From positions 5,308-40,495 of the forward strand of contig JAHDBR010000019.1 in assembly GCA_020630295.1 (NCBI GenBank): a stretch of 35,188 nucleotides of DNA, read 5' to 3'. The position numbers were made by a program, and so were the translations under genes. A model generated the notes under the pieces. It was not told the DNA's origin and made no database searches. It saw only the letters and a program-made list of their open reading frames with translations. This document shows, piece by piece, positions 16,687 to 20,538 of this stretch (positions within the stretch are counted from its first letter, which is position 1; each line of letters starts with the position of its first letter). This DNA is from Sphingomonadaceae bacterium (lineage in GTDB: Bacteria; Pseudomonadota; Alphaproteobacteria; Sphingomonadales; Sphingomonadaceae).

Positions 16687-18261
16687 CTATTCCCACTCAA
16701 TCGTACCGGGCGGTTTGCTAGTATAGTCATAAACCACGCGGTTCACGCCCTGCACTTCGTTCACAATCCGTGTTGCGCATTGCGTCAGGAAGCTGGCGTC
16801 GAATGGGTACACATCCGCAGTCATCCCGTCGGTGCTGGTAACGGCGCGCAAGCCGCAGACGCTGTCATAGGTGCGGGCATCGCCCATCACGCCTACGGTT
16901 TTAACGGGCAGCAGCACCGCAAATGCCTGCCAGATCGCATCATACAATCCGGCGTTACGAATTTCTTCAAGATAGATCGCATCCGCCTTGCGCAGAATGT
17001 CACAGCGTTCCTTATTCACTTCACCCGGAATGCGGATGGCAAGGCCGGGACCAGGGAACGGGTGACGGCCAACAAACATATCGGGAAGGCCCAATTCGCG
17101 GCCCAGATCGCGCACCTCGTCCTTGAACAATTCGCGCAAAGGCTCGACCAGCTGCATATTCATCCGCTCTGGCAAGCCGCCAACATTATGGTGGCTTTTG
17201 ATCGTCACGCTGGGTCCGCCGGTGAACGAGACTGACTCGATCACATCAGGATACAGAGTGCCTTGCGCGAGGAAATCAGCGCCGCCGATCTTCGCGGCTT
17301 CTTCTTCAAACACGTTGATGAATTCGCCGCCGATGAATTTGCGCTTCTTTTCCGGGTCGGAAACGCCCGCAAGACCCGCCATAAAGCGTTCTTCGGCATC
17401 CACCACGACCAACGGAATATTGTAGTGATCGCGGAACATCTTCTCGACTTGCGCCCGCTCGTCCAGACGCAGCAGGCCGTGATCAACGAATACGCAGGTC
17501 AGCTGATCGCCGATTGCCTCGTGAATCAAAATGGCCGCAACCGAACTGTCTACTCCGCCCGACAGGCCGCAAATCACTTTGCCGTCACCCACCTGGTCGC
17601 GGATCTCGGCGATTTTGGTGTCGCGATAGGCGGCCATCGTCCAGTCACCCTTGAGGCCGCAAACGCGGCGAACGAAATTGCCGAGTAACTTCGCGCCATC
17701 GGGCGTATGGACGACTTCGGGATGGAATTGTGTGCCGTAGAACTTGCGCTTCTCATCCGCGATTACGGCAAATGGCGCGCCGTCCGAAGTGGCTACAATT
17801 TCAAATCCGGGCGCGAATTTTGTGACCTTGTCTCCGTGGCTCATCCATACCTGATGGCGTTCGCCCACATCCCACATTCCATCGAATAGCGCGCATTCTT
17901 TGGTCACGGTCAGAAATGCACGGCCAAATTCGCCGCCTTCGCCCGTTTCGTGGCCACGGCGAACTTCACCGCCCAGCTGGTGGCTCATCACTTGCTGCCC
18001 GTAGCAGATCCCCAATATCGGAACGCCCGCGTCAAACAGAATATCCGGTGCGCGCGGTGAACCTTCATCAGGGACGCCCGCAGGCGATCCGGATAGTATG
18101 ATGCCTTTAGGCTTCATCCGGTGGAATGCCTCCTCCGCCATGCTGAAAGGGGCGATTTCAGAATATACACCCGCCTCGCGCACGCGGCGTGCGATCAGTT
18201 GGGTAACCTGACTGCCAAAGTCGACGATAAGGATGGAATCGGGAAGATGTGCTTGGTCCAT
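16687..18261 (-). CDS. guaA: GMP synthase (glutamine-hydrolysing)
   Basis: 524 residues. Converts XMP to GMP with ATP and glutamine, the last step of guanine nucleotide synthesis. Domains: class I amidotransferase (GICYGQQ, nucleophile C86; H180 and E182 in QFHPE), ATP pyrophosphatase (P-loop SGGVDSS, 234-240) and the C-terminal dimerisation/XMP domain ([13 protein letters not shown], ending PPGTIEWE). All catalytic residues are present. No Shine-Dalgarno is visible before the ATG at 18261. No RNA regulatory element (purine or PRPP riboswitch) was recognised upstream. It is followed by the DMT transporter gene. Confidence 0.97.
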
Positions 18262-18479
18262 GGCGCGCAGCGATACGGCGGCGCTGCGATGCTGGCAAGC
18301 ACGAGGAACCTGCCAAAGCGGCTCTTACACAGGCAATATCCTCAGAGCGATTTGTGACCGAGTAAAACGCGCATGGGCGTAAGGAAATTTCAAACGGTGT
18401 AACCAAAATTGCGCCAGCTGCGAATGGTATTTCAGACGCAACAACGCTCAACCGAGCACATCAAACAAAGGATATTATT
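18262..18479. other. Gap between guaA and the short ORF
   Basis: 218 bases upstream of both guaA (minus) and the short ORF at 18480 (plus). It must hold both promoters, but I found no clear sigma70, RpoH-like or EcfG-like (GGAAC...CGTT) element, and no gene-like frame. It has no striking repeat. Confidence 0.5.
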
Positions 18480-18563
18480 ATGCGCAACCTGACTGAACGA
18501 ACATTCGCCTTTATCTTCGCTGCTGCACTGAGCGGGATTTTCCTGAGCCCGACTATCGCCTGA
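18480..18563 (+). CDS. Short ORF, 27 residues, signal- or TM-like peptide
   Basis: MRNLTERTFAFIFAAALSGI and then FLSPTIA before TGA: a short N-terminus with two basic residues followed by a single hydrophobic helix. The start has a good Shine-Dalgarno (AAAGGA, 8-base spacing) and no other ORF explains the region, so I think it is translated. It could be a small membrane peptide or a leader. Downstream on the same strand, about 90 bases later, lies the structured RNA at 18655-18881, and no terminator intervenes, so they may share a transcript. Not recognised as a family; too short for similarity. Confidence 0.5.
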   Translation: MRNLTERTFAFIFAAALSGIFLSPTIA

Positions 18564-18580
18564 TCGCAGATCAAACTATT

Positions 18581-18597
18581 GTTGCAATTTATGCAAC
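18581..18597. repeat. Inverted repeat GTTGCA-ATTTA-TGCAAC
   Basis: A perfect 6-bp inverted repeat with a 5-base AT spacer between the short ORF stop and the structured RNA. It could be an RNA hairpin (processing or stability) or a DNA operator for a separate sRNA promoter. Confidence 0.45.
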
Positions 18598-18654
18598 TAA
18601 GATACAGATTTTCTCATTTGTATAAACTCTGACGCAACATTATTTCACCTTTGA

Positions 18655-18881
18655 ACCGGCGGCCACTCCTCCCTCTCTCCCGAATTGGCCCCGGTGACAC
18701 AGATTGACGGCACACGCACTCCCTCCTCCCGCGTGATTTCGCAATCTGGCCAATATTGCTGCTGCCTGCGAGTGCAGTGGAACGCCCGGCCCGATGGCCG
18801 CCCGTTCAGGCAAGTTGGCGATTAGAGACGCGGCTGCTCCAGTTCCCCCTAATAACGGAAGCAGCCGCGTCTCCCTTTTTT
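18655..18881 (+). ncRNA. Putative anti-Shine-Dalgarno sRNA (cuckoo/CcsR-like)
   Basis: Three nested hairpins and a terminator can be drawn by eye. SL1: ACCGG (18655-18659), one bulged C, GGCC (18661-18664) pairs with GGCC and CCGGT (18687-18695); its 22-base loop begins ACTCCTCCC. SL2: CAGATTG (18700-18706) pairs with CAATCTG (18742-18748), then CG/CG, then CACGC (18713-18717) with GCGTG (18731-18735); its 13-base loop ACTCCCTCCTCCC contains CCTCCTCCC. SL3: 18764-18811, with GCCT/AGGC, GAACG/CGTTC and GGCC/GGCC. Then the 14-bp terminator. CU-rich loops that can pair with Shine-Dalgarno sequences are the mark of alphaproteobacterial cuckoo/CcsR sRNAs, which are derived from transcripts of small ORFs. 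The 5' end and promoter are not determined. 6S, tmRNA, SRP and RNase P were considered and do not fit. Confidence 0.6.
18825..18881 (+). terminator. Strong rho-independent terminator
   Basis: GAGACGCGGCTGCT (18825-18838) pairs perfectly with AGCAGCCGCGTCTC (18860-18873), a 14-bp stem with a 21-base loop, followed by CC and six T on the plus strand. There is no T-run on the minus side, so it ends plus-strand transcription, and the only plus-strand unit before it is the short ORF and structured RNA. Confidence 0.9.
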
Positions 18882-18906: not shown

Positions 18907-20538
18907 TTAGAGCTGCGCAAGCAAGCTATCGATATGTTCGCGCTGTGCCGCATCGGCAAATTCGCGTACATCCTGAACCGCTTTGCGCGCTTCGGCCTTG
19001 CGGCCATTGGCAGCGAGAGCGGCGGCATAGTGCCATCTTACTTCCAGATTTCCGGGAAGCGCGTTCCTCGCCTGGCCAAGCCAGCGCAAGGCTTCTGCGT
19101 TGTTGGTCTTTGATTGCAGCAAAACCCAGCCCATAGTGTCCATTACTTGCGGATCATCCGGGGTGAGCGCAGCGGCGCGGCGCGCAAGCGTCAGCGCCTG
19201 TCCCAAATTGCCTGTTTCCAGCTCGGCCAATGCGCCATTGTTCAGGACCAGCGCATTGCTCTCCATCCCCTTTCCGCGCAAATCGGCATAGATCGACCGT
19301 GCGGTTTCCCAATCACGTTTGGCAATTGCGGCATCCGCTTGCGATAATTTCTGCGATAGATCTTCGGGTGGTTGCTGGCTGCCTAAACGCGCAGCGAAGG
19401 GATCATCGCGGCCGGTTTCCTGCGCCAGACGTGATGCCAGTGCCAATAATTGCGGCTGTGCAGCAGCGCGTTTCGCCGGTGTTTGAACAACCGCCCAAGC
19501 ACGTTCGGTCTCACCCACCGCAACCAGCGCCTGCGCCATGACAATTGCGCCCTGCATATGGCCGGGATTGTTACGCACGAACGGACGGAGAAAGGCGATC
19601 GACTGTTCATGATTCCCGCGCAAATGGGCAATTTCGCCCATCAGCAATTGCGCGGCAGGTACTTTGCGCAATTGCGATTCGGCATCCTGCATCGTGGAAT
19701 GTGCACTATCCAGATCACCTTTTACGAATGCCAGTTTTGCGTCGAGAAACATCCCCATCGGATGACCCGGCGCAATCTCCCGCGCGGCATCAAGGGTTTC
19801 GGTCGCCTCATCCAGTTTGCCCATATCGGCCTGCACCGCAGCCAAGGACAGGCGCGGGCCCACGATGGACCGGTTTATCGCAACGGCGGCCGCAAAATGT
19901 TCTTCCGCTTCGGCAAAATCTTCGCGCATGAGATCCAGCTTGCCCGCCAGCGTTTGCGCTTCGAGCGAGCCTTTATCCGCATCCAAGGCGCGATCGGAGA
20001 ATGTTTTTGCCGGGCCAATCTGTCGGCGACCCAATGCTATTTCTCCGCGCAAGGCCAGCAGCCGTGCATCTTTGGGATGCGTCTCCACCGCTCGATCCGC
20101 GATTGCGACTGCAGTATCTTCATCCTCCATTTGCAAATGCGCACCAATCTTGACCCAGCTGGCAAGCGGGTCATCAGCGCCAGCGTTGTCTGCCCATGTA
20201 AGCGCGGACTCGGCCTGCCTTTGTAGCAGTTTTGCGTGCCCCATCAGGCTGGCGGCTTGGCCCGTCATGCGCTGATCTTGAGGCAATGCTTCGAGAGCCG
20301 CCTGAGCGCCAACCCCATCCCCGAGAGCCAGTAATGCTTCCGCATATTTCAGACGTAGTTCGGTATTGGCCGGCTGCGCATCTATCGCTTGCGCATAATG
20401 CAGGCGCGCCGCCCCTAAATCACCGGACTCCAGTGCTTCGGCCGCTAGCGTTTCGGGACTACCTTCCGAGATTCCGCAGGCTGAAAGGGTCAGCGCCAAA
20501 GGTAGGGCCAAGAGCGAGATTTTGCGTTTAAATGTCAT
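18907..20538 (-). CDS. TPR-repeat lipoprotein
   Basis: 543 residues. It starts with a lipoprotein signal (MTFKRKISLLALPLALTLSAC, lipid Cys21), and the rest is a run of TPR-like helical pairs, with typical A, G, Y and A positions (GDLGAARLHYAQAIDAQPAN, GNLGQALTLARRAAALTPDD). It should form a periplasm-facing superhelix that binds proteins. The architecture resembles the PEP-CTERM-associated PrsT lipoproteins but it is shorter than those as I recall (PrsT is usually well above 800 residues), so the link is an inference from the neighbouring PEP-CTERM gene. ATG 20538. Its own terminator is not obvious; a separate one precedes it at 20653-20688. Confidence 0.75.
   Translation of the reverse strand: MTFKRKISLLALPLALTLSACGISEGSPETLAAEALESGDLGAARLHYAQAIDAQPANTELRLKYAEALLALGDGVGAQAALEALPQDQRMTGQAASLMGHAKLLQRQAESALTWADNAGADDPLASWVKIGAHLQMEDEDTAVAIADRAVETHPKDARLLALRGEIALGRRQIGPAKTFSDRALDADKGSLEAQTLAGKLDLMREDFAEAEEHFAAAVAINRSIVGPRLSLAAVQADMGKLDEATETLDAAREIAPGHPMGMFLDAKLAFVKGDLDSAHSTMQDAESQLRKVPAAQLLMGEIAHLRGNHEQSIAFLRPFVRNNPGHMQGAIVMAQALVAVGETERAWAVVQTPAKRAAAQPQLLALASRLAQETGRDDPFAARLGSQQPPEDLSQKLSQADAAIAKRDWETARSIYADLRGKGMESNALVLNNGALAELETGNLGQALTLARRAAALTPDDPQVMDTMGWVLLQSKTNNAEALRWLGQARNALPGNLEVRWHYAAALAANGRKAEARKAVQDVREFADAAQREHIDSLLAQL

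Follow-up and report, generated by a model that had tools for sequence, protein, structure and literature searches.

Trans-acting small RNAs (sRNAs) of the anti-Shine-Dalgarno (anti-SD) kind are characterized by SD-complementary loops, hypervariable stems and a terminator, as established for NfeR1/ar14 (PMC10746234, PMC7143759, PMC3927594), the loops of which silence mRNAs by pairing with their SD regions (PMC10746234, PMC7143759). CcsR1–4 of the cuckoo group are short RNAs that are processed by RNase E from the transcript of ccaF1, which encodes a 71-aa DUF1127 protein, and are under the control of RpoHI/RpoHII (PMC10253847). In Sphingopyxis granuli, SuhB depends on Hfq and blocks the translation of thnR, and its level goes up when growth is fast (PMC6563040). 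Beyond SuhB, riboregulation in the order Sphingomonadales has been little mapped, and the RNA described here would add a family of sRNAs that is conserved in a constant genomic position.

The window analysed in this study is a 35,188-nt stretch from a Sphingomonadaceae bacterium. Comparative analysis indicates that positions 18655–18881 are very probably a real small regulatory RNA that is widely conserved in the Erythrobacteraceae. The features of the locus are as follows.

16687–18261, minus strand: guaA (GMP synthase), divergent neighbour and synteny marker, with the same adjacent placement and orientation in most of the related loci
18480–18563, plus strand: small ORF for a 27-aa hydrophobic peptide (MRNLTERTFAFIFAAALSGIFLSPTIA), of a family travelling with the sRNA
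18581–18597, plus strand: GTTGC-N7-GCAAC dyad, fitting the generic LysR-type T-N11-A box
18609–18620, plus strand: TTTTCTCATTTG promoter element (−35 region), with invariant or near-invariant columns
18639–18644, plus strand: ATTATT, probable −10, at a fixed 18-nt spacing from TTTG
18655–18695, plus strand: SL1 hairpin with a C/U-rich anti-SD loop at 18666–18685; one compensatory pair in the genus
18700–18748, plus strand: SL2 hairpin with a loop at 18718–18730, the loop sequence being limited to a few species
18749–18819, plus strand: SL3, a three-way branched element with the conserved inner hairpin GCUGCCUGCGAGUGCAG
18825–18881, plus strand: terminator hairpin (GAGACGCGGCUGC..GCAGCCGCGUCUC) with a 17-nt loop, then CCTTTTTT
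18907–20538, minus strand: TPR protein gene, convergent neighbour; an acyl-CoA synthetase gene occupies the same place in most relatives

In most of >60 Erythrobacteraceae loci, the sRNA is flanked by guaA, which diverges from it, and by a convergent gene for a TPR protein or an acyl-CoA synthetase. No long conserved ORF covers 18655–18881, in agreement with the first-pass annotation, which had described about 225 bases that no ORF explains. A riboswitch or leader of the downstream gene was rejected because this gene runs convergently to the RNA. A literature search, which was not exhaustive, found no publication describing this guaA-side sRNA.

The minimum free energy of 18655–18881 calculated by RNAfold is −98.6 kcal/mol (z = −5.8), and none of 200 shuffled sequences folded as well. 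In this fold, SL1 and SL2 present loops of 20 nt (CUCCUCCCUCUCUCCCGAAU) and 13 nt (ACUCCCUCCUCCC), respectively, and the terminator stem (18825–18873) comprises 15–16 bp, closed by an unusually large 17-nt loop and followed on its 3' side by CCTTTTTT. In the alignment of 8 genus members, 49 consensus pairs were identified, and 93.9% of the cells at these positions are paired, versus 37–51% after the partner is slid. Compensatory (both-side) changes were found in 16 of the 49 pairs, compared with a mean of 6.2 in shuffled alignments, none of 500 of which scored as high. These changes fall, among others, in the SL3 helices (6 of 10 pairs in the outer helix and 4 of 4 in one inner helix) and the terminator. 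Judged from this covariation, the RNA structure is under selection in the window genus. The first-pass annotation had proposed a structured plus-strand RNA and had staked it in part on compensatory base changes in related genomes; the proposal is supported by the fold, by the covarying stems and by the terminator. Two of its details were revised: of the three hairpins described, SL1 and SL2 are borne out and SL3 branches instead of forming a simple hairpin, and the terminator with its T-run stands with a stem of 15–16 bp instead of 14 bp.

A DNA search of 61 relatives detected the RNA in all 7 other members of the window genus and in one neighbour genus. A search pattern built from the invariant promoter-like blocks of the relatives' alignment matched 50 of 201 family genomes, some by chance. 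In the collection of named genomes it hit 69 stretches: about 64 belong to Erythrobacteraceae-type records, and 5 come from unrelated bacteria and are apparently chance matches. In an order-wide scan, additional convincing cases were confined to the same GTDB family, the other families being at about the control level. For 50 non-redundant loci, the 220 nt on the 3' side of the promoter gave a mean z of −4.07 versus −0.12 for the 220 nt on its 5' side; a 62-nt SL1 segment by itself is only weakly stable (mean z −1.1). The SL1 stems are hypervariable: their arms diverge widely among species yet fit their own partners, and across genera they are too variable for alignment by MAFFT. SL1 arms paired at −16.6 kcal/mol with their own partner versus −10.6 kcal/mol with that of another species, a comparison biased by the choice of arms for self-pairing. 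Because the stems are hypervariable and the loops and promoter are kept, sequence-based models miss this sRNA.

The first loop is C/U-rich and anti-SD-like, on a hypervariable stem, nearly everywhere in the family. SL1 loops are 83% C/U and commonly contain CUCUCC or CCUCC cores, with short or non-C/U loops in some Qipengyuania members. Many members also have a hairpin of the terminator type, the large loop of which is rich in C/U (72%, often AGUCCUCCCCC); some members have no T-run or recognized terminator. In the window, SL2 carries CCUCCUCCC exactly, SL1 carries CUCCUCCC and the terminator loop carries AGUUCCCCCUAAUAACG; the family-wide form is CCUCUCCC or CCUCC-like. The long C/U loop of SL2 is common to the window and locus L009 and, in part, L012, and CCTCCTCCC in SL2 is kept within the genus only in the window and, near-exactly, in L009. 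The anti-SD loops of SL1 and SL2 are as first described, and what is conserved among the relatives is a looser C/U-rich SL1 loop, not the exact CCTCCTCCC. A genome-wide set of CCTCCTCCC loops was rejected, as the source genome contains 7 such sites versus 11 for the reversed control and thus no enrichment.

The complete promoter element consists of GTTGC-N7-GCAAC, 11 nt, TTTTCTCATTTG, 18 nt and ATTATT, from which a transcription start at about 18650–18655 is expected. The dyad was found with fixed spacing in 78 guaA-sRNA promoters and 23 suhB promoters, and the latter carry TTTTCGCACTTG, which is near-identical to TTTTCTCATTTG, at the same position. Two more distant matches to the promoter pattern are themselves SuhB/MmgR genes (RF00519; 51.2 and 44.7 bits, cut-off 41). 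Family-wide, and in the source genome as well, SuhB-type loci have GTTGC-N7-GCAAC-N11-TTTTCGCACTTG at the same distance to the RNA, and in all 7 genus genomes scanned both the suhB and guaA loci match the promoter. In the source genome, GTTGC-N7-GCAAC-N11-TTTTCKCAYTTG occurs with zero mismatches at the guaA-side sRNA and suhB, the next best site having three mismatches. This distribution suggests that the two RNAs form a two-sRNA regulon. The SuhB/MmgR-type sRNA gene with this promoter element lies at about 990–1155 of L186 (source genome, G000:C20:9000-11200). A similar promoter-like element was also observed 5' of a gene whose small product looks secreted and is possibly UrcA-like, beside the sRNA locus in L149 (about 970–1200) and L162 (about 1036–1260). 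The LsrB sites of NfeR1 and AbcR1 likewise fit the T-N11-A LysR-type box (PMC10746234, PMC8844928). A PhaR/AniA site was rejected, as the published PhaR motif, YGCRNYGCR, is without the N7 spacing (PMC12542648).

The small ORF at 18480–18563 corresponds to the tiny upstream ORF of 27 codons noted in the first-pass annotation, which had already set it apart from the usual DUF1127 type; its product is unrelated to DUF1127. The peptides of this family vary little in length, all 18 that were aligned being 27 aa long, with the consensus MRxLxxxxxAFxxAASLSGxxLSPTIA. Differences at codon positions 1, 2 and 3 account for 31, 14 and 55%, respectively (31, 8 and 60% in the upstream set), figures that are somewhat biased because the frames were found partly by the peptide pattern. 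The ORF is apparently under coding selection, as for a translated gene. One clear copy was found in the source genome (E = 2.6e-14), and the peptide matched no Pfam or NCBIfam family above the cut-off. Its position varies: in the window genus the ORF is located 5' of the sRNA, in several genera it forms part of the transcript, in Qipengyuania it follows on the 3' side, and in Tsuneonella it is preceded by a further copy of the sRNA promoter. A tandem duplication of the promoter unit was seen in L159, L160, L161 and L082, with the first copy accompanying the sRNA and the second driving the peptide ORF. A second conserved block, AAATTTC...GTGTAACCAATATTGC (about 18388–18437 in the window), lies 5' of the ORF in the genus and is possibly the peptide gene's own promoter; GTGTAACC is also found 5' of the downstream-placed ORF in Qipengyuania (L060).

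Alternatively, the RNA could act in cis on the peptide gene, SL1 covering the ribosome site of that gene in genomes with the ORF within the transcript, or, in the window genus, could be a processed 3' UTR of the peptide mRNA. The presence of the ORF and its AGGAG site in the segment from SL1 to the terminator in several genera and the lack of a clear terminator between the ORF and the sRNA in the window are compatible with such an arrangement, which we nevertheless consider unlikely. The conserved sRNA promoter sits between the ORF and the RNA, and in L009, L012 and L016 the RNA is kept while the ORF is missing or degraded. Moreover, SL1 loops pair with the ribosome site of their own ORF at −10.4 kcal/mol and with those of other species at −10.0 kcal/mol, and the pairing of the window SL1 and SL2 with the ORF ribosome site amounts to −4.2 and −5.4 kcal/mol, respectively. 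Pairing of SL1 in cis with this site was rejected, there being no cognate advantage.

The reading that we prefer, and regard as probable, is that of a trans-acting sRNA of about 225 nt with its own promoter, of a type common to SuhB/MmgR, which represses translation through its anti-SD loops, probably with Hfq. We infer its transcription, pairing in trans, use of Hfq and growth signal as follows. The RNA would be transcribed rightward from this promoter and would pair with purine-rich SD regions in the mRNAs of other genes, lowering the translation of those mRNAs. The pairing would be made by exposed C/U-rich loops: that of SL1 in nearly all species, that of the terminator and, in a few species, that of SL2. 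Hfq would probably assist the pairing; the Hfq of the source genome has two domains in tandem, encoded by a single open frame of 188 aa (L235/L236, G000:C83:2704-3129). Because the promoter type is common to both, the guaA-side sRNA and SuhB/MmgR are probably made under the same signal, which would be fast growth or carbon surplus if Sphingopyxis SuhB is a guide; by analogy, a SuhB-like timing of the guaA-side sRNA is likely.

Among complementary SD sites, proposed as the place to look for targets, perfect GGAGGAG-ATG sites were found 5' of several real genes in the source genome. None of these candidates recurs in the relatives, and conserved targets based on such sites were rejected, none being common to the genus. 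The leading candidates in the source genome, all strongly complementary and named from protein sequence only, are a sigma-factor-like gene (GGGAGGAGGGGTGCAATG, L219) and TadB-like (L217), sdhA-like (L224) and pyruvate dehydrogenase subunit-like (L234) genes. Instead of silencing mRNAs, the hairpins might act as a sponge for RNA or a decoy for protein, e.g. titrating another sRNA, one with GGAGG motifs, or Hfq. The presence in a single RNA of several loops with C/U tracts of great length would suit this role, and an sRNA sponge described in Caulobacter (PMC12559287) provides an alphaproteobacterial precedent; the documented role of similar loops, however, is anti-SD silencing, and we regard a sponge or decoy as very improbable.

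The guaA-side sRNA, read as an anti-SD silencer, can be compared with four known systems. The first-pass annotation had leaned towards a cuckoo/CcsR-like RNA and had pointed to Rfam covariance models as a check, neither of which led to an assignment. At threshold the window contained no CcsR1 (RF02791) match, and a search of 551 nt of it at E ≤ 5 likewise gave none; ar14/NfeR1 (RF02344) scored 13.4 bits against a gathering cut-off of 58.8 (E = 4.3); and neither SuhB/MmgR (RF00519) nor AbcR1/AbcR2 (ar15) had an Rfam match in the window. miRNA-type Rfam matches in the relatives, which were under the gathering scores and biologically senseless, were discarded. No DUF1127 protein was detected above the cut-off anywhere in the source genome, and the loop and promoter signatures also differ from those of the cuckoo RNAs. 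A diverged but true member of the cuckoo/CcsR-ar14 lineage, inherited from an alphaproteobacterial ancestor, would share the anatomy of hypervariable stems, anti-SD loops, terminator and adjoining small ORF, and the ar14 alignment, weak as it is, is full-length. Such descent seems improbable to us given the missing Rfam matches and DUF1127 gene, a promoter unlike the published NfeR1 and CcsR promoters (PMC10746234, PMC10253847), and an SL1 consensus, CCUCUCCC, that is nearer to CAUCCUCUCC of SuhB/MmgR.

Like ar14/NfeR1, the window RNA has several hairpins with anti-SD loops, hypervariable stems and an upstream T-N11-A LysR-type box (PMC10746234), whereas ar14 has the promoter CTTAGAC-N17-CTATAT and identical CCUCCUCCC in all three hairpins, and the window RNA has a different promoter and varied loops with one exact copy, in SL2. 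With CcsR/cuckoo and CcaF1 (CIN1 locus) it shares an anti-SD loop RNA, an adjoining tiny protein gene and a terminator; unlike CcsR, it is one long RNA with its own putative promoter, which resembles that of SuhB, and an unrelated 27-aa hydrophobic peptide. AbcR1/AbcR2 also contain CU-rich anti-SD motifs, and AbcR1 is under LysR-type control (PMC8844928), but they are tandem 114–121-nt RNAs beside lsrB. SuhB/MmgR (ar8) has GTTGC-N7-GCAAC-N11-TTTTCKCAYTTG at identical spacing in the same genomes and a C/U-rich anti-SD stretch, CAUCCUCUCC, resembling the family SL1 motif, while SuhB is about 61–77 nt in length, highly conserved in sequence and encoded at another locus, and the window RNA is about 225 nt with hypervariable stems.

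We give an even chance to the wider proposal that the Erythrobacteraceae have their own counterpart of cuckoo/CIN1, in which an anti-SD sRNA and an unrelated 27-aa membrane-type peptide are combined with a dedicated promoter in a two-member regulon with SuhB/MmgR, the peptide gene having repeatedly entered and left the sRNA transcript, which in some genera would be a dual-function RNA. It would be an independent case of an anti-SD sRNA with a small peptide and would open to test the question of whether such combinations recur because of their function. The guaA-side sRNA should be filed as its own family, tied to SuhB through the common promoter, inside the known class of anti-SD sRNAs and apart from the cuckoo RNAs.
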